Source: Pseudophaeomoniella oleicola (Eukaryota > Ascomycota > Eurotiomycetes > Phaeomoniellales > Phaeomoniellaceae). Taken from it: a stretch of DNA of 64,000 nt. Positions 19,393-34,739 of this stretch are shown piece after piece. A program made the translations under genes and the position numbers. The notes below the pieces were generated by a model. That model had not been told where the DNA came from. It did not search any database and saw nothing but the letters and a program-made list of their open reading frames with translations. Each line of letters starts with the position of its first letter. Position 1 is the stretch's first letter. Where the stretch lies: assembly GCA_003868215.1 (NCBI GenBank), contig QWDQ01000008.1, positions 496,001 through 560,000 of the forward strand, in the 5' to 3' direction.

Positions 19393-20482
19393 TCAAGGCG
19401 ACAAGCCGTTCTCGGCCAGAACCTTCTTCAGCGCGTCGACCGACTGCTTCAGCAAGGCCTGCTCTCGCTCCTTAAAATGGCCGGCGCCCTGGGTCTTCGC
19501 GCCGGCACGACCGATTGCGGCGGGGAGACTGATGGCGCAGCCGAGGTCGGGTTGGACGACGCTGACGGGTTGGACATCGTGGCGGTCACGTAAGATGCTC
19601 TCGCAGATGGCAGTTGTGACGGCAGCGATGCCGTAAGCGGTCCCCGTGTCGGGTTTGCCGTTGTTGATGATGTCGTAGCCTTTTTGTTTGGTGGCCCTGA
19701 GGACGCGTTCTTGGTGGGCGGAGGAGAGGGTAACGGTGAGGGGGATGCCGGTGCTGGTGGTGGCGTTGCCCCAGTCAATCTGAGGGCGTGGGGTGTTAGA
19801 ATGGGTGAGATTCTCAGCCCTAAGGGGAAAGAGAAGAAAGAGCCAATTGGATCTGGTGAGTGTGGATAAACTTACGAATTGGGATTCACCGTGCTCGCCG
19901 TAGACGAAGGTATTTAGTGAGGCAAACGGGATCTAGAGTACATCAAAGGTAGTGAGTGGCATAGCTCCCTGAGACGACCGCACCGATAAGGTTTAGGCCA
20001 CTTACATGCAGGTCCTCCTCCAGAGCGAATTTCAATCTCACGGTATCCAGATAGGTTCCTGTTCCGATAACCTGCTCAGCAGGCAAGCCCGACTCTCGGG
20101 TGGCATAATAGGTCAGGATATCGACCGGATTGGTAACGAGTACCAAGACGATATCCTTACGAAGTGGGGCCATTCCATCCAGGACGTTTTTAATGACCTC
20201 GATGTTCTCGCTTGCGAGGTCGAGTCTCGGTTGATCTGGCTTCTGCCTCTTTCCGGCTGCTATGATGGCAATATTACACTGACCGACCTCGGACAGCGTG
20301 CCTGTCTTCACCTTGGTATGGGTGAGGAATTGGGCATCTGCTAGATCAGCAGCCTGTGATTTAGCCCGAGTCTCACTGATGTCGTTGAGAATGAGGTCGT
20401 GGCAGACACTCCGTATGAGCAAGTTGAAAGCAATGGCTCCACCTGATTCGCCGGTTCCGACTATGCCAATGCTTGAAGGCAT
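19393..20482 (-). CDS. L-lactate dehydrogenase-like enzyme (LDH/MDH superfamily)
   Basis: Predicted NAD-dependent 2-hydroxyacid dehydrogenase, most likely lactate-pyruvate, cytosolic. Three exons on the minus strand, 20482-20006, 19932-19876 and 19779-19393, give 306 residues. The dinucleotide fold has GTGESG near residue 9 and an acidic residue ending strand 2 (LILNDIS), as for NAD. The mobile-loop segment AAGKRQKPDQPRLDL carries Gln at the classic specificity position where malate dehydrogenases have Arg, plus the catalytic Arg in PRLDL. The Asp of the Asp-His pair is in TYLDTVRL and the His in VYGEHGES. No targeting peptide is seen. The C-terminus is short (LAENGLSP). Splicing the two 55-95-base introns is needed to place the catalytic His; unspliced frames miss it. 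The old yellow enzyme gene lies just upstream on the same strand. Confidence 0.88.
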
Positions 20483-21361: not shown

Positions 21362-22856
21362 CTACAATGCACAGCAGAAAGAAAGGTAGGTAGACTTACT
21401 CGGAGCTCGATGATATTGATCTACCCATGACACATTAGTGTTCGTTGCCAATGCTACTCTTTGCACAAAGTTAGGATCGCGTAGGAACTCGCGAGCAACA
21501 GAACAGACGTCTGCTTTGTTATTTTCTATGATCTGTTTGTTACAGGAATGTCAGCGTCACTGAAGAACATGAACCGAACGCGATGGGGCCTGTTTTCGGT
21601 CTACTCAACTTACGTCTGCGACCGTTTCACCGTCCCGTATCCATCCTACAGCACTGACGTACAGTCCTGGGATGTTGAGGTCCTTGACGGCTTTGGCGAA
21701 CGGGACTTGATACTGCTGTCCCAGTTGTACCTTCTGCTGTCTATCAGTCCCACCACTCGAGACGTCCAAAAGGTCGATGCCTTCTGATCTCAGGATAGGC
21801 GCGTAGCGGAGCGTGTCTTCCAGATCCCACCCCTCGCCGGATGGAAGCCAATCGACGGCTGAGATCTTCCAGAACAGGAGAGTTTCTGGCGGGACATTGC
21901 GGCGGATGGAGCGGATGATCTCGATGCCGAGCCGCGTGCGGTTCTCGAAACTGCCTCCCCATTTATCGATCCTTTTGTTGGACTGTACGTCGTACCTGTC
22001 AGAAGTGTGCTAAACGCAGCAGAGAGAGGGGGGAAACCAGATGTGCAGAGGTCACTTACCGCTGGGCTAGCAAAAGAATGAATGAGATACCCATGTGCTC
22101 CATGCACTGCAATGATCTTGATACCTGCCTTGACGGCCCTTCGAGCAGCGGCCCCAAATGCCTCGATGACCTCCCAGATCTCTTCTTCGGTCATCTCCTT
22201 GGGTGTCGCATAGTTTTCGTTCCAAGGTTCTGCACTAGGGCCCCGGACTTGGTGCCCAAAGCCTCCAAACTCATCAGGAACCAATTTTAAGCCCAGCCAT
22301 GGTGGGCAGATGCTGGATTTCCGTCCCGCGTGTTGCAATTGGATAGCTGCATGCTGGGATTGGGAATGAATTAGGTCGACTACCCGCTTAAGGGGTGGAA
22401 TCTGATCATCAGACCATAGCCCAGAGTCCTGGGGCGTATTGAGACCCTAAAATTGGAGACCTCAGATCAGCCACTTCCATTGCTGTACCTAGCACAAGTT
22501 TTCAGAGTGTTTTCAACAAGACCACATCTCCATACCCACGGTACCACAGCCGTCGCCTCGATCGTAACCAACGGACACCCCCTCAACGCCCACTGCCCAT
22601 AATGCGCCACATGAAAATCAGTCAACCTGCCCCCCTCGCAACTATACATGCACATCGGCGCACAGAAGATCCGATTCTGAAACGTGATACCCCTGATCGT
22701 GAGCGGCCTGAACACCGGGCTGATCTTCTCCGGATCATCACCATCATCGACGATCGCGGTGCCCACGGGGAGACGCTGTTGTGGGGTGAAGAAGGGAAGA
22801 CCGGAGACGCAGGGGCTGCGATAGTCTGTGTAGGTCGTACCGCTGGGGGAGGACAT
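21362..22856 (-). CDS. YqjM-type old yellow enzyme (NADPH dehydrogenase, ene-reductase)
   Basis: FMN flavoprotein that reduces activated C=C bonds with NAD(P)H. Four exons on the minus strand, 22856-22536, 22446-22060, 21982-21614 and 21532-21362, give 415 residues. The N-terminal 45 residues are extra; then FRPLTIRGITFQNRIFCAPM begins the TIM barrel. PMCMYS carries the Cys that tunes the flavin in the YqjM (class III) group. LQHAGRKSS and VHGAHGYLIHSF carry the substrate-anchoring residues, and NKRIDKWGGSFENR follows. DVSSGG and the C-terminal ENNKADVCSVAREFLRDPNF form the phosphate-binding end. The last residues (KSTYLSFCCAL) are not family-like; read-through of a splice donor-like GTAAGT at the end may mean the true tail differs. 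The gene shares strand with the neighbouring LDH and transporter genes. Confidence 0.88.
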
Positions 22857-23544: not shown

Positions 23545-25901
23545 TCATCCTGTTACTGTGACTCCTTTCTCGTTTCCGGTCATACTACTACTAGTCTTCT
23601 CTCCGTTCTCCGTCGTCGTCTCCTCCTCCCCTTCCAACGTCGGTACTGCCGCCGCCGTCTTCTTCTCCTTCTTCCGACCGCCGATCCATTCGACCATGAA
23701 GACGAAGAATTCCTTGATGCTTCTCCGCCCTTCCCAGAGCGGGAGCAGCGTGATCGTGGTGGCGGCGTAGAAGCTCCAGAGGAAGACGACGACGATCCAG
23801 CCCTTGAAGAAGCCGCGGCTGAAGATGTAGTGGGTGCCGTACATCGGGATCGGCCAGAGGATCAGGTAGCAGAGCGTCATGACGAGGCTGGCGATGAGAG
23901 CGAAGGTGCGGGCGCGGATGAGGCGGGAGTTCTCGGCGACGGGGTTGGTGTGGTGGGCGGCGGGAATGCCGCTCTCTTCGGCGAGGACTTCGTCATGTTC
24001 CTCGGCGTTGGCAGCGCCCATGTCGGCGTCATCTGATTTCTTGATTTCCTTCAGATGTTCCCAGTCGTAGTTGTCCGGCTTTATGTATGTGAGGAGAGGG
24101 GTCAGAACGATTGGTCCAAAGACGGACATTCTGGTCTCGGAGTCAGTATAGCCGCTCATTTGACCTCAACTGAACAAGACTCACATGTTCCCAGCGACCA
24201 GAGGGATACTCTCATTGGTTGTCGCCAATGTAACAGAACCGTAGTGAGTGTAGGCAGTGGTAAGCCATGCGGTGATAGCAGCAGCCGACGATACCACAGG
24301 GGCGACGATGACTGCCAATTTTGACTGCTTCTTCCACATGACGGTGCAAGCCATCGGGAGAATGGCAGAGTCTACCACGATGCCAATAGCGGTGACGATA
24401 TAGTTTACTAGAATGCCTGATCAGCCTCTCATTAGAATAGAGCAGAGCTATGAGGGGCTTACCACTGAAGCCTGCGTGATTCAGACCAACGGCAACAGAT
24501 GCAACGAGAATGGCAAATGCCACGACCACAATACGCGAAAACCGAAGCAGTTGAACCCCAGTCGCTTTTGGATTGAAATAAGCTTGGTAAACGTCGTGTG
24601 TAATCAGAGCCGATGTAGCCATGGTTTCCGAACTCATTGCACTTGTGACAGCCATGAATATCATGAGCAGGATGGCAACAGCGCCATTGTTTCCCCAAAA
24701 GGTAAGAGCTGCGTAAGGCATTGCCATACCTGATTTTATCGTTAGCATTCCCATACATGCAGGAGTTTAGCAGACGCACCAGTGGAAACCTCGTAAGAAG
24801 TCATTCTGTTTGGATAAGTCGGGAACTGTGGTAGATGTTCTGTAGCAGCTGCCGTGAGGCCGTACGTTGTTGCGAGGACAAATGGGATGGTGAACCAGCA
24901 ACTTCCACCAAGGAGGTACCCAGCCAACGTACCAGCTGGATCTGCAGCGATTGCCTTTTGAGACAATTGGGAGTCAACTGCTGCAGCAAAGCCGGCTCCA
25001 ACGAAGATCAATCCGATATAGCCGCCGCCAGGACTTGACATGGTAAGATACTCCCCACCGGCATTTCCAGATACTGGATGCAGCCTAGCAGCCTCTTTCA
25101 AAAGATCAAACATCCTGTCAGTGGATCCAACTACAGAGGACGTCGTATATACGAGGAATACAGAAGCGAGCATGATAACGTAAATAATGACCGTGTGAAC
25201 CTGTTATGGCGAGTCAGAACAGTGCTGAAAGCCGTGCAAACGTACTCACCCAGTCTGTGACGAATGTAGCCTTGATGCCACCGAGAACAGTGTAGATCAC
25301 AACGCCAATTGGAAATAAGAAGCATGCTCCGTCGCGGTTGATGCCCGTCATAGTCTCAAAAACTGTAGATCCGCCGACCAAAAGGTTCACAGCGGCGAAG
25401 AACTGGTAGAACATTGCGTAACTTCCAAGTACAATGTGTGCACCCGCCCCATAACGATGTCGTACAACTTCGAGGAAAGTGTGAGCGTTCGGAGCTCTGC
25501 GTTTCAGCTCGATAGCAAAAACCGAGAACAAGAGAATCTGCACACTTGCGGCACTGGCATACCAGAACGGACCTGATATACCGTACGTATATCCATAGGT
25601 TGTTGAAGTAAGCAGAGTAGCGCTGATTGTCCATGAAGAGACAACCGCTGAAGCTGTGAGTCCCGTTTTAACACTGTGTTTGGCTGTCATGAACATCTCT
25701 GAAGCTGGGTCAGCCTGCTTCTCTCATCTTTGGATGAAAGCCCAGCGTACCTGAAGTTTGCTTCTCAGCAAAGAATTTCGCGAGGCACCATGACATCAGT
25801 GACATCCCCAGGGCAAACAATGCTCCAACTCCAATGATTATGCCATACCCGACGCCCTCGCCGAGGGGAGGGGAAATCTGTAGGCCTTCCACAGATGACA
25901 T
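23545..25901 (-). CDS. DUR3-like sodium:solute symporter family permease
   Basis: Plasma-membrane transporter of the SSS family, related to fungal and plant urea/polyamine transporter DUR3. Six exons on the minus strand, 25901-25751, 25698-25250, 25200-24780, 24729-24463, 24407-24185 and 24130-23545, sum to 699 codons (698 residues), the usual DUR3 length. Family signatures include VGYGIIIGVGALFALGMSLM (first helix), AKHSVKTGLTASAVVSSWT, YGISGPFWYASAASVQILLF, ELKRRAPNAHTFLEVVR, GGIKATFVTDW, FVGAGFAAAVDSQLSQKAI and AMSSETMATSALITHDVYQ. The C-terminal tail is cytosolic, Thr/Glu-rich. It is divergently transcribed from the LamB gene across 629 bases. I infer from this linkage that its substrate may be a lactam or the resulting amino acid, not necessarily urea; the sequence alone cannot decide. 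Confidence 0.9.
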
Positions 25902-26530
25902 CCTGAAGGGTAGGGTGTTGTAGACAGCTGGTCATATAACGACGAGACGAGCCAAAAGTCTGGACGGTACTTCAGAGGACAAAGCTGTTGCTATAAGCTC
26001 TTCAGGCCCTGCAACCATTATCGGTCCCAGCTCAGTTACAAGCCCGAATTTATGCCATTCGAGATAGAGGCCCGTAACTACCCCTGCCTCCCAGTGGATC
26101 AGGCAGGAATGGTCCACCTCCTGGGCTCGAAAACAGATGACATTGAGTAACTGCATGCCGAGACGCTCATCTTTGTCTATTGCTGATAGCGTTGCTGATA
26201 AGGAGTATTGAGGTTAAGGAGATCGGCGCGTTAGAGCTCGATACTTTCCCGTTTGGCGAACAGATTAGTCTCCCTGTGCAGGGGTTTATGTCGATCGTAT
26301 ATGATGAAGGTTGCTTGGGGCGTGTACTAGTCACTGTATGTGATCCCGGGACAACGGCGGGCCTTGTTAGAGGCTGTTATGTGATGCTATCAGACATGCT
26401 CGGATCCCCGACCTGGAGGTTTGTTCCGGGTTCTCAAAATGGAACTTGGTAACACAACGACTCACATTTGCTTCATTCGGCGTGCAAGCAACATAATTGA
26501 TATTCAAGTGCCGTCTGTAAAGCTACGAAA
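25902..26530. promoter_or_regulatory. shared divergent promoter of permease and lamB, with GATA sites
   Basis: Three HGATAR motifs of the AreA/Nit2 type are present: TGATAG at 26184-26189, TGATAA at 26196-26201, and CTATCA (reverse TGATAG) at 26387-26392. Two zinc-cluster-type half-site pairs are also seen: CCG-N6-CGG at 26346-26357 and CGG-N4-CCG at 26401-26410. Paired GATA sites 12 bases apart are typical of nitrogen-regulated fungal promoters. Motif presence is seen; regulation is inferred. Confidence 0.5.
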
Positions 26531-27355
26531 ATGGCTGCAGGGTTAGCTGTGAAGTATGAAATCAATTCCGATATGGGCGAGGGGTTCGGGAGGTGGAAGA
26601 TGGTAAATCCAAGAGTGTGTTGCAAATGATTATAGTTACTGAGACCTCATGGCTAGGGACCAGATGCAGAGTTGATGAAAATCATTGATGCTGCCAATAT
26701 CGCATGCGGTTTCCATGCAGGGGATCCGACTATCATGATGAACACCGTCCGTCTATGCAAACAGCACGGCGTCAAGGCAGGTGCTCATCCAGGCTTGCAA
26801 GATTTGATCGGATTCGGGAGAAGGAAGATTGAGATCGATCCTAAGGATATGTACAACATGATCCTGTACCAAGTTGGGGCATTGAAAGCTATGCTTGATG
26901 CCGAGGGCGTGCCGCTGAATCATATCAAACCTCACGGCGAACTCTTTTTCTACATGCTTAGGGATCTCAAAATCATGAGGGCTGTTCTTGAGGCCTGTGC
27001 TACCTTCAAAGTGCCGGTCTACGGAGCGAAGAATGAAGCGGAGAAGAAGATGTGTGACGACTTGGGTATCCCTTTCCAGGAAGAAATCTACGTCGATATT
27101 GATTATAGTCCTGAGGGAAACCTGGTACCAGTCGCTCAGTCCAAGCCTGCCTCGCCTGAGCTCTGCTACCAGAGGGTTGCCGACATGGCTTCCACAGACC
27201 ACACGACGGCAACTAATGGTGAACGTGTGAAAATGGGATTCAACGGGGCACCGTTCAGTGTATGCATTCACAGTGATATGCCCACTGCCCTGCAAAACGC
27301 GGAGGGGGCGAGAAAAGCGGTGGATGAAGCCAACGCAGCGAAGTCGTTCAAATAG
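26531..27355 (+). CDS. lamB: LamB/YcsF family protein (5-oxoprolinase subunit A-like)
   Basis: Member of the family named after Aspergillus nidulans LamB (2-pyrrolidinone use) and Bacillus YcsF, now PxpA, a subunit of the ATP-dependent 5-oxoprolinase PxpABC. Two exons, 26531-26602 and 26657-27355, give 256 residues, normal for the family. The first exon supplies the signature NSDMGEGFGRW (family consensus DLNCDLGEGFG), absent from the longest single frame. Then come ANIACGFHAGDP, GVKAGAHPGLQDLIGFGRR, HIKPHGELFFYM and the C-terminal FSVCIHSDMP. It is cytosolic, with no targeting signal. It is divergent from the permease and followed on the same strand, 892 bases later, by the biotin-dependent partner. 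I infer a joint lactamase activity with that partner. Confidence 0.92.
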
Positions 27356-28247
27356 TAGCGGTATGTCTACTACGTATAAGCATGAATAATGATATGGAAT
27401 CAACATATTTCCCCCCCTACACTCTTTATGTTAAATTATAGTATCGCAAAAGAATGCATCTGGTTCCAATACGCCTAGATCCTGGAGCCTTCACGTGGAA
27501 TGACCTTCCGATGACAACACTTCTTTCAAAGTGATACGTTCACATTGATCTCCTGCATCTATGGCCCAAGGTGCCGTCCTCTCAGACCTGTTATCTTCTC
27601 AGATAGAAGAATTATGGACAAGTGCCCTTAGTGAGTAAGGTCATCGACAAATCTGTGCTGCTCTGGCTTATCTGGTTCACGAGCCGGGCCATCGAGCCCA
27701 TAGTCATAACCAGCTCGCCAGGCGTCAACGGCGGTCTCCAATTATATTTGTTTCACGATGATCCTTGTATGTTCGATGATTAGCAGCTTCCCAATCCAGT
27801 GTGATCGCTGCCTTGGGTGTCTCGGGCCACAATAGATGAGGATACTATTACTACGTACAGTATTACTGTATCGCACCTTATCAACCTCATAGTAAGAGCC
27901 ACCAACATCGCTCTTCTCCGGAACCTCGTGCCTCCTCCTCGACCCCAAAGCCGAGCGTAGTACACAAGCCATTGCACGCCAATTGCGTTTGAACTAATCC
28001 ACTGACCCGAGAGAACGCCATACATAGTACGGTCGAATCCTGGAAAGAGAGGCTAGTGTTCGCGGGGTACTAGTATCTTTCACGAACGTAGTAGCGAGGT
28101 AGATAAGGCCATGATCGGATCTGCGTATCATGTCATGTCTCCTCTAAGCAGAATGCATTTCCTCGTTAGGGCAGGTTCCAAAGACTCAAGTCCTTCCCCA
28201 GATAATCTCATTCAGGACTGGAATACAAGGGTATCATCTCAGGCAGA
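27356..28247. promoter_or_regulatory. lamB-lamA spacer with GATA sites
   Basis: No gene is seen. Two AGATAA motifs lie upstream of the LamA-like start, at 28101-28106 and 28200-28205, matching HGATAR of AreA-type factors. A CTACTACGTA half-palindrome occurs near 27368 and another near 27850. Confidence 0.45.
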
Positions 28248-31200
28248 ATGGCATCGCAAGGACTGGGCCATATAAAGAAAGTGCTCATTGCCAATCGTGG
28301 CGAGATCGCCGTACGATGCATCAAGGCCTGCTCAGCTGCGGGGGTAAAGAGCGTTGCCATTTATACAGAGGCAGACGCAACCTCGCTTCATGTAAGCTTT
28401 GCCGATGAGTCGGCATTGTTACCTGGTCCGAATAGCACGGCCTACACAGACGGGTATATCTAACAGACAATGCTGCTTGTTCACCACTAACTGTAAACGC
28501 AGAGACGCCATCATCGAGATATGTAAAGGTTTGGAGGTGGACGCCGTCCTTCCTGGCTATGGATTTCTCAGCGAAAACACCGATTTCGCGGCGAGTGTCA
28601 AGGCGGCGGGCATGGTATTCGCTGGCCCATCATCAGAGTCTATCTCCGCAATGGGTCTAAAACATGAGGCCAGAGAAATCGCTAGAAAGGCCAAAGTTCC
28701 CATTGTCCCAGGCTCCTCATTGCTATCGTCTGCCGAGAATGCAGTGAAGACAGCCACGGACCTCGGTTTCCCGATTATGCTCAAAGCTACTGGTGGTGGT
28801 GGTGGCATGGGGTTACAGGTCTGCAATTCTGCTGACGAAGTTGAAGCGGCATTCAAGCGCGTTGAGAGCAGGGGGGCAGCTCTATTCAAGAACTCCGGAG
28901 TATTTCTCGAACGCTATTATCCTAACTCTCGACACATTGAGGTACAGGTTGCTGGAAACGGTGATACCGTCATTCACTTCGGCGAGAGGGAATGCTCTTT
29001 GCAGAGACGACACCAAAAAGTCATCGAGGAATGTCCGAGTCCGTACGTGCAAAAGCATCCAGAGCTACGGGAGAAGCTCACGGCCTCCGCTGTGTCTTAC
29101 GCTTCGCAGCTGAACTACAAGAGCGTTGGTACCGTGGAGTTTCTCGTTGACGACGAAACAGGGGACTATTTCTTCCTCGAGATGAACACTCGACTTCAAG
29201 TGGAGCATCCTGTTACGGAGAAATGCTACGACGTTGATCTCGTACAGCTGATGCTACGTCAGGCCGATTATGAGAAGGGAGGAATGGGTGGTATCCCGAC
29301 TGAAGAGCTATTGAGCATGCAGAAGCCAGGGCCCAAAGGAGCTGCAATTGAGGCCCGAATATATGCTGAAATACCGTCTAGAGACTTTGCTCCAAGTCCT
29401 GGGCTCCTTCAAAATGTCGAATGGCCTCAAGGCGTTGGCCTTCGTATCGACACATGGGTGAAGACTGGCCAAAGGATACCACCTTACTATGACCCTCTAA
29501 TCGCAAAGCTTATAGTACACTCCAGAGAGGATCGTAAGCATGCACGAGAGAAGATCTTGCAAGCTCTGGCAGAAACAACGCTTCAGGGCCCAGCGACAAA
29601 TCTAGAATACTTACAAGCGGTCATCGAGACGGAGAATTTCGCGCAAGGCGACACACTCACGAATTTCCTCTCGAGCAAGTTCGTTTACGAACCACGTGCA
29701 ATCGATGTTTTGAGCCCTGGAGCATTCACCACCGTTCAGGATTTCCCTGCTCGAGCTGGCCAGAGTCATGGTGTGCCTAGTTCTGGGCCTATGGACACTA
29801 TCAGCTCGAGAGCAGCAAATCTTCTGGTTGGCGACAGCCCTGGTACAGAGCTATTAGAAGTTACGGTTTCGGGCCCAGAGCTCTTGTTTCACGTCGCCGC
29901 TGTGGTATCTGTTTGTGGTGCAAAGATGTCAGAGGTCACGGTTGATGGAGTGGATCAGCCAATGTGGTCTCGGTTCATCGTCAACAAAGGGCAGAAGCTG
30001 AAGGTCGGAAAGGTTGAGACTGCAGGCTGCCGCTGCTATATAGCTGTGAAAGGGGGTTTTCCGTCTATCGCGACGTACCTTGGCTCCAAAGCGGCGACGC
30101 CATCACTTGGCCTTGGTGGTACGCAAGGGAGACAGGTGCAAATGGGTGATATGTTCTCACTCTCCGAGTTTTCAGAGACGTGGGCATCCTCAATGAGTCC
30201 TTACTCCCTACCGAAGGAGGTCCTACCCGATTTCGCATTTGAACATGTCTACTGCATGCATGGTCCTCATGATTCTGATGATATCATGACGCAGGAAGAC
30301 CGCGACATGATCTACAGCCATTCGTGGAAGATAGGCCACAATAGTAACCGCACTGGAGTGCGATTGGTTGGGCCGAAGCCAAAATGGGCGAGAAAAGATG
30401 GCGGCGAAGGTGGTTCGCACCCGTCTAACGTTTTTGATTATGGCTATCCTTCCCCCGGCGGCATTAACTGGACTGGCGATGACCCTGTTGTCTTTACTTC
30501 AGACAGTCCTGATCTGGGAGGACTCGTGTGCTCGACTACCATCTGCTCCGGCGAATTGTGGAAAATTGGCCAATTGAAACCCGGAGACTTTGTCAAGTTG
30601 AAGCCGACGACTTATGAGAATGCTGTGAAACTGCTTCACCGCAACGAAGAATATCTCAATGACATACAGCATCTAATTAGTGGTCATTCCACACACAAAC
30701 CCGTACTGTTTTACTCCTTGCCACCTGGCGAGTCTCCGGCTATATTGAAGTTTGTCAGGCGAACCGATGGCCGGCCTGATGTGACGTATCGTCAAGGTGG
30801 CGACCGCTTTATCATCATCAAGTACGGCACTGAGACTGCAGACTTGATGATCGTGGCGCGCGTGAGACTCCTTACGCAAGCTCTACAGTCTCAGGGTATC
30901 GAGAATCTTGTCCTAAACCCAAATGTTGGAACCTTGACTGTTCAGTTTGATTCTCTTGTCCTCAGCCAATCCCAGCTTATCTCCATAATTTCCGATCTCG
31001 ACGACTCGATCACAGACTCGGTCCATGCCCACATACCCTGTCGGGAGATTCGCGTGCCAGCCTGCCTCGATCACCCAGCTCTTCAAGAAGCCGTTCAGCG
31101 GTACATGGACACAGCTCGACCGACCGCCGCATATCTGCCTGACAATCTCGAATATCTACGGAAGAACAACGCTTTCGAGGATCGTCGTGATGCCTTCGAT

Positions 31201-32013
31201 ATGCTCCTGAAGACTCCATACCTGACTGTTGCTGTCGGCTTTCTCGTCGCCACTCCTATCCTTTTCCCACTCGACCCGAGATGCACGATCATCGCCCAGA
31301 AATACAATCCGTCACGCGTGTTCACTCCGGGGGGAACTATCGGGATCGGCGGTTCCCTACTCTCGATCTACCCCATCGACGCCCCGGGCGGTTACATGCT
31401 CTTATCGCGCACACTCGAAGCCTGGGACACATTCGGCACCCGCCCGGGTTTCACCCCGTCCAAACCCTGGCTCTACGAACCCTTCGACCTAATCCGCTTC
31501 TACGAAGTCTCCCTCGCCGAATACACGCAAAACGAACGGGACTTCATCGCGGGAAAATACCACTTCGACATCCGCCCGACCACCTTCGACGTCTCACACT
31601 GGCACACCCTTTCCCAAACCGCCAAATCCTCCCCTTCATTTCAAACCCACAAATCCAACCAACAACGCGCCGCGCAAGAACAACTCGAGCACGAAAACGC
31701 CCTGCTCCACGCCTGGACCGCGTCCAAAGCCTCGGCCGCAAAATCCGACGCCCAACAACTCCAATCGCTGCTCGAATCCGACGACACCCTGAAAGTGACG
31801 TCGCCGATCGACGCGAACGTGTGGAAAGTCCTCGTCGGACCCGGCGATGTGCTCGACGACGGGCAACTCGTCGTTATACTCGAGGCCATGAAGATGGAGA
31901 TCAACGTGCATGCGGGACCCGAGATGAAGGGAGCGAGGGTTAAGGGGGTGGCGAGTAAGCCGGGGAGTATCGTGAGTCCGGGGCAACCGCTGATTGTTGC
32001 TGTGAGGGATTGA
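28248..32013 (+). CDS. lamA: LamA-like biotin carboxylase-KipA-KipI-BCCP fusion
   Basis: Two exons, 28248-28453 and 28503-32013, give 1238 residues. Order of domains: biotin carboxylase (about 10-460), with KATGGGGGMGLQ ATP loop, HIEVQV, FGERECSLQRRHQKVIEE and EMNTRLQVEHPVTE; KipA/PxpC/AHS2 (about 490-800, FTTVQDFPARAGQSHGVPSSG, ELLEVTVSGPELLF); KipI/PxpB/AHS1 (about 840-1060, GGTIGIGGSLLSIYPIDAPGG); C-terminal biotin carrier (last 80) with EAMKMEI, Lys biotinylated. This is the layout of urea carboxylase and of the second half of fungal Dur1,2, but the N-terminal allophanate hydrolase of Dur1,2 (about 1830 residues) is absent. With LamB beside it, the set supplies every PxpABC subunit plus AccB/AccC functions. 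From memory, the A. nidulans lam locus carries lamA and lamB for 2-pyrrolidinone use; lactam opening is therefore the best inference, urea or guanidine carboxylation the alternatives. GC rises over the last 700 bases. Confidence 0.9.
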
Positions 32014-32642: not shown

Positions 32643-34739
32643 TCAATGGGCATTTTCCCCTTCCCTGATGGCCTCGTGATGGGCCAAGTTCCTTTGATTT
32701 TCGAATCCGTGCTCAGTCTCACCGCCATGTTCGCGCAATAGATTCATGAGCACGAGGACAGCAGCGTAATCTTTATCTAGAGTTTGGGACTTTTTCATCC
32801 TCTGATATCTGTGAATAACGACATCAAGAGGAGTTTCATTATTGTCATTATAAACATTGACCTTCGCGCCGTGCTGGAGGAGAGTCTTGACGGAATCGAT
32901 CAAGTTGGTGGTCTGGGCGGCATAATGAAGCGCCCTGTTGCCCTTTCTGTCTCGAAACTCGGTGCGTACGTGGGCGTCGAGAAGCAGCTCCATGCCTATC
33001 TTCACGAATTGCCCACACAGAGGTGAATCAAACATGAAGAGAAGCCTCATCAAAGGTGTTCGACCCTCCTCATCATAGTTGTTCACGTTACTACCCTGAA
33101 GTACGGCTTCTGACAGTGCGCTTCGAAAATTCGCATTTGCTTCCCCAAGAACAGCCTCTGTCGGTTTTCGAGCAACATCGGCGGACAGTCCCGGATAGTC
33201 GTTACCGAACAAAGTGAGAATGCCGTGCACACGATCGTCCAGTAATTGGAATACAGATTCATGCAATCCGGGATATCTGTTGACCTGCGTGCTCGATGGA
33301 TCGGAACTCTTGCTTCGCAAAGTCTTATATCGCTGTCCTATTTGATGGAATAAGCTGTGACCCCGATTGTCGCGATATGCTGAAATAATCTGCATCCATG
33401 GCAAGTCCTTCTGCGCTAGCAACATCATGACATCGACGGGAAACTTCTCTTCAAGCATCAGTGTGTGCAGAAAAGATTGTCCATCGTTGTCAGCGATTGT
33501 GAAGTCAAATTCTCGTAAAGTAAGTGTCCTAATAAGACTGATGAATTGGCGCGGATCCAATATGTCTGATGGACTATAAACATGAAGAAATGTTTGCCCA
33601 TCAAGATTCGTATGGTTGATATTGTCAGTGACGCGCATGACGGACGTTAGGATCTCTATGTTCGCTCCCCATCGAGCTGCAATAAGGAGCAAATTGTTTC
33701 CAAGCTCATCGACACGATTAGCCTCGAAAGGCTGAATGCAGAGGCCACTCATATAATATGCCTGCGTCGTATCGCTCATGATGACCTGGCTCAACTGCCT
33801 ATGCACGCAAGAGGTCGACGAGAGACAGCAAGAATACAACACAGCACTGTTGGCCTCTACGCCAGTTTGAGATGTTGGCCACAATGACACTAACTGCTGA
33901 ATGCCGTACATGTGATCAGCAGCCGGGCTCGATAGATGAGAAGACCCATCAGTCGCTTCCCGGCTTGAAAACGAGAACTTGCTTGAGGTGAGGGAAAGGC
34001 CACTTAAGAGACTAGCAATATCTGTCAAAAAAGATGGAGTGCGTTCGCCGGACGGTGCTCTACTAAGAAAGGAAATCCTTGATCGGCGCCGTGCAAGCAT
34101 CAACAATGTATCAGGATCTGCTCTCGGAGCTTCCGTATCAATTAGAGATCGATCCTCATGGGTGGGTGATTGACGATGTTGCCCGAGCTCGGAGGTTGGC
34201 TCTGTCTGCGGAACTGTTTTCTTGTCTGTACTTATTGAGGAAGCATTGCCTCCTGACAAGGACAATGAAGCTGCTATTGTCGGTGGTTGATGCTGGAGAG
34301 ACAGTCTGTGAGAGAGTCCAGACATTTCGTAGGACGGAGCATTGACAATCTCTGGCATAATATTTGCGGGGCTACTCTGCCTCCTTGATCGCCTGCTGTC
34401 CCTGACCCGTCTTAGCAGTTCGATTCGTTTCTTCATTGCTGCTCTGTTGGGAGGCCGGAGTTCGGCATAGCCCTTTGATAACATTTTGCCGAGTAGGATC
34501 TCTGTGTTTCGCTCCCTGAGAAGTGCCGTCAATTGGAAGTTCTTGCTTGATACGTATTCCGGCTGGGATACCTACTTTGGCCTGAAGGAATTATCGCCAA
34601 GCAACTGCAGTATGTCTTTCAGTCGGACGTACTTCTGAGGCGTGAATAGGTAAAGCCGTAATAGGCGTCGCAAGCGTGAAGACGTCCATGTCGACGGTCT
34701 CCCCGGGCGTTGAGGGCGCTTCGTTGTAACACGAGCCAT
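32643..34739 (-). CDS. ankyrin-repeat protein with basic N-terminal domain, function unknown
   Basis: The main exon (about 34540-32643) encodes roughly 630 residues without a starting ATG, so an upstream exon is needed. The likely start is the ATG at 34739 (MARVTTKRPQRPGRPS), followed by a basic helical stretch (LRRLLRLYLFTPQ) and KDILQLLGDNSFRPK. This resembles short DNA-binding-like N-terminal domains of some fungal ankyrin proteins. The joining intron is not resolved: the in-frame donor GTAGGT would leave an intron of about 30 bases, too short, so a donor near 34628 (GTACGT) or a model error is possible. A Ser-rich linker fills the middle. Ankyrin-type units are visible at VDELGNNLLLIAARWGANIE, DEEGRTPLMRLLF, DRKGNRALHYAAQTTN and DNNETPLDVVIHRY. 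No catalytic domain is seen. It is probably a nuclear or regulatory scaffold, but that is a guess. Confidence 0.7.

Follow-up and report, generated by a model that had tools for sequence, protein, structure and literature searches.

Organization of the locus

The stretch analyzed here (the window; 64,000 nucleotides, C91:496001-560000 of the Pseudophaeomoniella oleicola genome G000, which has 26.1 Mb in 112 contigs) contains three neighboring genes that encode a DUR3-like permease of the SSS family, a LamB/YcsF protein (LamB) and a biotin-dependent carboxylase (LamA). We read them, with a probability of about 0.68, as a lactam-use locus in which LamA would carboxylate the lactam nitrogen, LamB would open the ring and the permease would import the substrate. 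This reading is well supported for LamA and LamB, with a lactam as the probable substrate, and moderately supported for the permease, with import as the presumed direction of transport.

Splice models were built from sequence and protein similarity (Table 1). They confirm the three genes and their domains as located in the first-pass annotation, except that the start and the first intron of lamA had to be added. The permease introns are 49-55 bp long and all have GT..AG borders. The genes lamB and lamA stand in tandem with 892 bp between them.

Table 1. Features of the permease-lamB-lamA locus, in window positions (aa, amino acids).
Feature	Position	Strand	Details and basis
SSS-family (DUR3-like) permease gene, 698 aa	23545..25901	-	Gene model, PF00474, DUR3 structures
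Permease exons (six)	25901-25751, 25698-25250, 25200-24780, 24729-24463, 24407-24185, 24130-23545	-
Permease V434	24394..24396	-	Place of UreA Tyr437 (urea selectivity); comparison, partial text of PMC4077062
Permease F266	25003..25005	-	Place of UreA Asn275; comparison, partial text of PMC4077062
Permease-lamB intergenic gap, 629 bp	25902..26530	.	Genes diverge from it
lamB, 256 aa, LamB/YcsF (PxpA-like)	26531..27355	+	Exons 26531-26602, 26657-27355
lamA, 1238 aa, biotin-dependent carboxylase	28248..32013	+	Exons 28248-28453, 28503-32013
LamA biotin carboxylase part, residues 9-459	28272..29673 (intron included)	+	Pfam
LamA carboxyltransferase subdomains A/B, residues 491-769, PxpC/KipA-like	29767..30603	+	Pfam
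LamA Asn724	30466..30468	+	K. lactis Asn1330, urea-type not guanidine-type; alignment
LamA carboxyltransferase subdomains C/D, residues 830-1047, PxpB/KipI-like	30784..31437	+	Pfam
LamA Phe982 in VGF	31240..31242	+	Beside missing K. lactis Asp1584; alignment
LamA Lys1002	31300..31302	+	K. lactis Lys1605, likely general base of carboxyl transfer; alignment
LamA biotin carrier domain, residues 1173-1233	31813..31995	+	Pfam
LamA Lys1199 in EAMKM	31891-31893	+	Biotin site; motif

LamA differs from urea and guanidine carboxylases

The Pfam domains of LamA follow the order Biotin_carb_N, CPSase_L_D2, Biotin_carb_C, CT_A_B, CT_C_D and Biotin_lipoyl, and its best full-length match in the PDB is the urea carboxylase of Kluyveromyces lactis. 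Against the urea carboxylase model TIGR02712 (urea_carbox) it scores 1251.6 bits, below the equivalog cut-off of 1303.85, as does a distant fungal relative (P0115; 1167.8 bits). Five bacterial urea/guanidine carboxylases reach between 1555.9 and 1965.6 bits, the lowest of them covering profile positions 1-923 only. The score of LamA against the PxpC equivalog NF045499 is 114.7 bits (cut-off 500).

Urea/guanidine carboxylases are called by an Asp at K. lactis position 1584, and residue 1330 separates guanidine (Asp) from urea (Asn) carboxylases (PMC11410670 and PMC12186494, both in partial text). Lys1605 probably acts as general base in carboxyl transfer (PMC5770610, in partial text). Of 120 fungal LamA-type proteins listed, we aligned the 117 that have 1000 or more amino acids, using K. 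lactis numbering. Asp1584 is missing in all 117, where VG-F stands instead of LGDVFLG; Lys1605 is kept in all 117 and Asn1330 in 116, the remaining one having a gap. All 44 urea/guanidine enzymes aligned (11 urea-type, 32 guanidine-type and that of K. lactis) contain Asp1584, and so do the five bacterial urea/guanidine carboxylases compared in the fungal alignment. The biotin carboxylase motifs and the EAMKM biotin site were counted in 111-117 of the 120 listed relatives.

Since the biotin carboxylase motifs, the biotin site and Lys1605 are retained, LamA likely performs a real biotin-dependent carboxylation, and since Asn1330 is kept while Asp1584 is lacking, a lactam, with an amide carbonyl and no second amino group, fits as the acceptor. 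Underlying this fit are contacts of these two residues with urea, which we take to exist. LamA has Asn724 where guanidine carboxylases have Asp, and the gene next to it encodes LamB; no allophanate hydrolase is fused or adjacent to LamA. The earlier proposal of a lactam rather than a urea or guanidine enzyme is supported, as far as sequence can tell, by the loss of Asp1584, and the label ‘urea carboxylase’ for fungal LamA-type proteins looks wrong on the same grounds. The GF in place of GD also occurs in the PxpB-type proteins of known structure KipI, PH0987 and YbgJ, but these have Arg at the place of the Lys. PDB entry 9yx5 (‘allophanate hydrolase subunits 1 and 2’ with biotin-dependent carboxylase subunit alpha3) may provide structural support for a biotin-linked PxpBC.

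LamB

LamB matches the Pfam family LamB_YcsF (E 2.1e-83). It exceeds the cut-offs of two PxpA subfamily models (NF003814, 241.4 bits with a cut-off of 226; NF003816, 222.8 bits with a cut-off of 213) and stays below those of the three PxpA equivalog models. LamB is also present in Ogataea and Pichia yeasts (P0338, P0339, P0344, P0345). Strope et al. did not find stand-alone urea carboxylase in Saccharomycetes (PMC3073912, in partial text).

The permease

The permease is a member of the SSS family (Pfam SSF, PF00474; E 2.2e-24), and DUR3 (9j7c; E 2.8e-134) is its best PDB sequence match. Seven UreA residues (Y106, A110, N275, A374, Y388, Y437, and S446) are conserved among urea transporters but not in their paralogues, which carry no significant urea although residual carriage is allowed, and growth on urea is lost with the substitutions N275I and Y437A (PMC4077062, in partial text). 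Mapping these positions through plant DUR3 reveals that the window permease keeps four of the seven (Y106, A110, A374, S446) and has Phe for N275, His for Y388 and Val for Y437.

None of the 64 best-scoring permeases (P0121-P0184, a group set by rank rather than by a tested clade) has Tyr437 (Ile stands there in 45, Val in 15, Thr in three, and Leu in one), and 61 have Phe at position 275. Tyr437 is kept in 25 of the next 56 permeases (P0185-P0240). The change at Y388 is nearly special to the window permease (His in 1/64, Tyr in 61/64). The genome contains four further permease paralogue loci, of which the copy on contig C40 (L036) keeps Y388, Y437, and S446 and is, judging by these residues, the best UreA candidate of the genome. 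The first-pass designation as a DUR3-type permease thus holds for family and sequence similarity; without UreA Tyr437 and Asn275, it should not be read as urea transport.

A second LamA/LamB pair

We found a second pair, LamA2 and LamB2, on contig C47 of the same genome (C47:25352-39999; L033, L034). LamA2 is intron-rich, has Ser at position 1330 and VG-W at 1584 (Asp missing), and keeps Lys1605. Also encoded at the locus are an MFS carrier, a class II aldolase, Zn2Cys6 and Fungal_trans_2 parts, and a class-III aminotransferase that best matches ornithine aminotransferase models. The aminotransferase fits the lactam reading because an omega-amino acid product would need one. The two loci have carriers of different types, an indication that LamA/LamB pairs are adapted to different substrates.

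Linkage of the three genes across fungi

Phaeomoniella chlamydospora gives the best matches of both LamA (80%, queried with its region 480-1060) and LamB (84%), on contigs of equal size (147,984 bases), which excludes chance for the locus. We then surveyed synteny in rows that give both an organism name and a contig: 92 for LamA, 59 for LamB and, among the 64 top-scoring permeases (down to P0184), 57. Contigs of equal size were taken as the same contig, and some species may mix assemblies.

LamA and LamB are located on contigs of equal size in 23 of the 27 organisms listed for both, bearing out their proposed partnership. The four non-matching organisms are Clonostachys chloroleuca, C. rosea, Colletotrichum higginsianum, and Fusarium falciforme, which may mix assemblies. 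The permease shares an equal-size contig with LamA or LamB in seven of the 18 organisms for which it and one other gene are listed (Scytalidium, Claussenomyces, Phlyctema, Tricladium, Coleophoma cylindrospora, Ascochyta, and Pestalotiopsis). Where contigs are long, location on the same one is weaker evidence than adjacency. In Scytalidium and Claussenomyces, presumably both Leotiomycetes, the gene tags are consecutive (LamA/permease g10792 and g10794 with LamB g10793; LamA/permease 000602 and 000600 with LamB 000601). The LamA and permease tags were at first seen to be two apart, and the LamB search then returned exactly the missing tags. The order permease-LamB-LamA of the window therefore recurs in two other genomes. 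In Ascochyta, which we take to belong to the Dothideomycetes, the tags for LamA and for the permease differ by two as well (005160, 005162), and LamB is not among the rows listed. The linkage of the permease is thus not confined to this genome: the earlier suggestion of a linked permease is supported for some lineages, and in 11 of the 18 organisms no linkage was seen.

Two apparent LamA-LamB fusions (P0012 of 1491 aa and P0101 of 1275 aa, both with PF03746) were read as merged gene models and give a hint of adjacency only. Four LamA models (P0030, P0032, P0094, P0098; from Aspergillus steynii, Cylindrodendrum and Beauveria) are merged with PF04082, a fungal regulator domain, hinting at a local regulator gene in these fungi.

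Bacterial relatives and tree position of LamA

A search of 398 Pseudomonadota genomes with the carboxyltransferase region of LamA gave matches in 48. We opened 43 fused genes (30 + 13), which do not cover six of the 48 genomes or the second copies that others carry. A bacterial fused LamA was sought among these genes; all 43 carry Asp1584 and are, by residue 1330, urea-type (11) or guanidine-type (32). LamB was not seen in their flanks, although 30 of the loci (3.8-4.8 kb) consist mostly of the gene itself; for the other 13 the flanks span about 4-7 kb on each side. A Xanthomonas genome (G001) that carries a urea/guanidine-type fused enzyme has no LamB match at all.

Unfused relatives were collected by a CT_C_D search of 249 Pseudomonadota and 199 Bacillota genomes, from which 47 loci were opened with their flanks. 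These comprise 10 of the 12 unfused matches below 150 bits (without G076 and a Xanthomonas urea-carboxylase piece, G001:C1:489272) and 37 of the 137 matches above 160 bits (every third Pseudomonadota row and 13 Bacillota rows). Position 1605 is Lys in all 10 low-scoring and Arg in all 37 high-scoring loci. Since G076 (145.2 bits) and G221 (150.1 bits), read without flanks, are both Arg-type, score class and Lys/Arg type are not perfectly matched. A biotin carboxylase is encoded within about 6 kb in 6/10 Lys-type and 6/37 Arg-type loci (Fisher p = 0.010), and LamB in 6/10 and 35/37, respectively, with some loci ending at contig ends (e.g., L165). When the Lys-type loci were scanned with a simple motif, no biotin carrier turned up. 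Three Bacillota Lys-type pairs of CT(C/D) and CT(A/B) (carboxyltransferase subdomains; L168, L169, L170) have Ile or Met at position 1330, and neither LamB nor a biotin carboxylase was found within about 6 kb of them.

In a FastTree tree of 44 sequences (GC_L155 shortened) with 10 Arg-type sequences as outgroup, the unfused Lys-type bacterial loci, locus L089, LamA, the urea/guanidine carboxylases and the K. lactis urea amidolyase form one Lys-type clade (support 1.0). The LamA clade (0.988) and the urea/guanidine group including urea amidolyase (1.0) are sisters (1.0), and L089 is placed next to this pair (0.991). The rooting is to be read with long branches, a bacterial sample mainly from two phyla and an outgroup that does not form one clade in mind. 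The first-pass annotation had described LamA as bacterial PxpBC and AccBC simply packed into one chain; we reject this, because LamA is of the urea-carboxylase type and groups with the urea/guanidine carboxylases, not with Arg-type PxpBC.

L089 (L089:3550-11599, Pelagibacteraceae) encodes in a row two branched-chain-type ABC-permease genes, LamB, a fusion of biotin carboxylase with CT(C/D), and CT(A/B), and is a marine bacterial cousin of the fungal LamA/LamB system. The residues at 1330/1584/1605 are Gln/none/Arg in classical PxpBC (with a gap at 1605 in one of the 10 Arg-type rows), Gln/none/Lys in other Lys-type bacteria (Gln in 9/12, Ile or Met in the three Bacillota), Asn/none/Lys in L089 and LamA (Ser at 1330 in LamA2), Asn/Asp/Lys in urea carboxylase and Asp/Asp/Lys in guanidine carboxylase. 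The simplest account of these sequences is that the urea/guanidine carboxylases descend from carboxylases that worked with LamB, and that on the way the Asp was gained and LamB lost.

Proposed mechanism

In the lactam cycle that we propose, with the steps in their presumed order, the permease would import a small neutral lactam, 2-pyrrolidinone or one related to it. With ATP and bicarbonate, the biotin carboxylase part of LamA would load the biotin on the carrier domain, which would then swing to the carboxyltransferase part, where CO2 would be placed on the lactam nitrogen. N-carboxylation would create an imide-like ring with a carbonyl that is easier to hydrolyze. LamB, as a PxpA-type hydrolase, would open this ring to yield a carbamate, which on release of CO2 would become an omega-amino acid, for example γ-aminobutyric acid (GABA). 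LamB would play the role for lactams that allophanate hydrolase plays for urea. Our searches of the open-licence PMC literature found no mechanism for fungal lactam use.

Alternative explanations

Several observations weigh against the lactam locus as a whole. LamA is only 52 bits short of the urea-carboxylase cut-off, and no aminotransferase was seen among the typed neighboring genes of the window. The conservative UreA substitutions N275Q and Y437F keep growth on urea (PMC4077062, in partial text), and position 275 is likewise Phe in the UreA candidate on C40, where it falls at the border of an aligned segment. Two allophanate-hydrolase-like amidases are encoded elsewhere in the genome (C2 and C38; 439.9 and 416.9 bits, cut-off 511), so that gene content leaves a split urea pathway possible. 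Among the bacteria, Arg-type PxpBC also has a biotin carboxylase nearby in 6/37 loci, and LamB more often than the Lys-type. Linkage of the permease was not seen in 11 of the 18 organisms, some of which may mix assemblies, and the 120 permeases listed include no P. chlamydospora row, though LamA and LamB of this species are the best matches; the linkage is therefore patchy even near the window species.

LamA could instead be a true urea carboxylase whose partner, an allophanate hydrolase, is encoded elsewhere, and urea would then be what the DUR3-like permease imports. The best structural matches of both proteins, the conservation of Asn1330 and Lys1605, the amidases on C2 and C38 and the database name ‘urea carboxylase’ of the relatives all agree with this. 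It is nevertheless highly improbable in view of the general loss of Asp1584, the score under the TIGR02712 cut-off, LamB as the linked partner gene, the presence of a urease (C30), and Phe and Val at the UreA positions where N275I and Y437A abolish urea growth. Opening of 5-oxo-L-proline to glutamate by LamA and LamB, as by bacterial PxpABC, would explain why LamB exceeds two PxpA subfamily cut-offs, and 5-oxoproline use in Corynebacterium glutamicum needs PxpABC together with PxpT (PMC13274462, in partial text). Here too the odds are low: LamA falls in the Lys-type clade, not with the Arg-type PxpB of Escherichia coli and Bacillus subtilis, its PxpC score is far from the cut-off, and at least eight Hydant_A_N loci are present in the genome, so that an OPLAH-type oxoprolinase may do this work. 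A less remote, though still doubtful, possibility is that LamA and LamB act on lactams next to a permease that transports something else, such as a urea analogue or a polyamine. The substrate range of SSS carriers is wide, and both the 11 organisms lacking visible linkage and the missing P. chlamydospora row point this way; the equal-size contigs in 7/18 organisms, the same three-gene order by tags in two of them, and the divergent promoter region shared by the permease and lamB point to a common function.

Relation to known systems

Katz and Hynes reportedly described AmdR-controlled lactam use and the lamA/lamB genes of Aspergillus nidulans in 1989, and we assume that the A. nidulans proteins have the same architecture as those of the window. 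The likeness lies in the paired lamA and lamB for lactam catabolism, which in A. nidulans are under AmdR together with GABA genes (PMC8016842, in partial text). The window likewise has a LamA-type fused carboxylase linked to LamB, and differs in the added permease and the tandem lamB/lamA arrangement; the A. nidulans proteins were not among the rows compared. The lamA/lamB system of A. nidulans is thus already known, and the permease-linked variant is new here.

The stand-alone fungal ‘urea carboxylase’ of Strope et al. (2011) has the same architecture as LamA; it occurs in many Pezizomycotina, with one copy in A. nidulans, and was kept apart from urea amidolyase. The authors take it as a urea enzyme and group it with a widespread bacterial copy, and, by word count, their text contains no ‘lamb’ (PMC3073912). 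In our analysis, Asp1584 is missing, LamB is linked and the fungal enzyme is, with an outgroup, sister to all sampled urea/guanidine carboxylases. Urea carboxylase, DUR1,2 and guanidine carboxylase share with LamA the chain of biotin carboxylase, CT(A/B), CT(C/D) and biotin carrier as well as Lys1605, and urea carboxylase also Asn1330; LamA differs from them by the absent Asp1584, the score under the TIGR02712 cut-off, the linked LamB and its separate clade.

Compared with bacterial PxpABC, which comes with PxpT or with accB/accC, LamB is of the PxpA type and the carboxyltransferase halves of LamA are homologous to PxpC and PxpB, whereas the Lys of LamA is replaced by Arg in classical PxpB, and LamA is fused with a biotin carboxylase and a carrier. 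The PxpABC cluster of C. glutamicum also holds a transporter (PMC13274462, in partial text), and its need for PxpT is a precedent for cluster transporters of lactam-type hydrolases; PxpT is NRAMP-like and the window permease of the SSS family. The latter is close in sequence to the DUR3/UreA urea-proton symporters of the same family, from which it differs at Asn275, Tyr437 and Tyr388. Our searches of the open-licence PMC literature gave nothing in which a fungal permease is brought together with LamB and a LamA-type ‘urea carboxylase’, nor a statement of the Asp1584 loss.

Neighboring features

The permease-lamB gap contains five putative GATA-type motifs, and one putative CGG-CCG palindrome lies between genes of the locus. 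About 7.4 kb downstream of lamA, an Amidase exon (PF01425; 39429-39965, minus strand) scores 88 bits to TIGR02713 and is the only amidase match on the contig of the window. AmdR of A. nidulans controls an acetamidase too. A malate/lactate dehydrogenase-like gene (20015-20482), an NADH:flavin oxidoreductase-like gene (22470-22856) and an ankyrin-repeat protein gene (32646-34532), all on the minus strand, have no evident tie to lactam use.

Implications

We give even odds to a broader view, in which the fungal stand-alone ‘urea carboxylases’ would be LamB-dependent lactam N-carboxylases, intermediate between the bacterial Lys-type and the urea/guanidine enzymes; the latter would have followed by Asp gain and LamB loss, and permeases suited to particular substrates would have been acquired in fungal lineages (SSS in the window, MFS at LamA2/LamB2). 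The lactam reading provides a concrete chemistry for fungal lactam use, biotin-dependent N-carboxylation followed by LamB hydrolysis, and marks out a group of DUR3-like carriers for which urea transport should not be taken for granted. Many database entries name the LamA-type protein urea carboxylase or urea amidolyase; if the reading is true, these labels mislead models of nitrogen metabolism. It also suggests an origin for urea and guanidine carboxylases, with LamA looking like the ancestral-type state. The mislabelled annotation and LamA as a possible step towards urea carboxylase are more interesting results than the locus itself.

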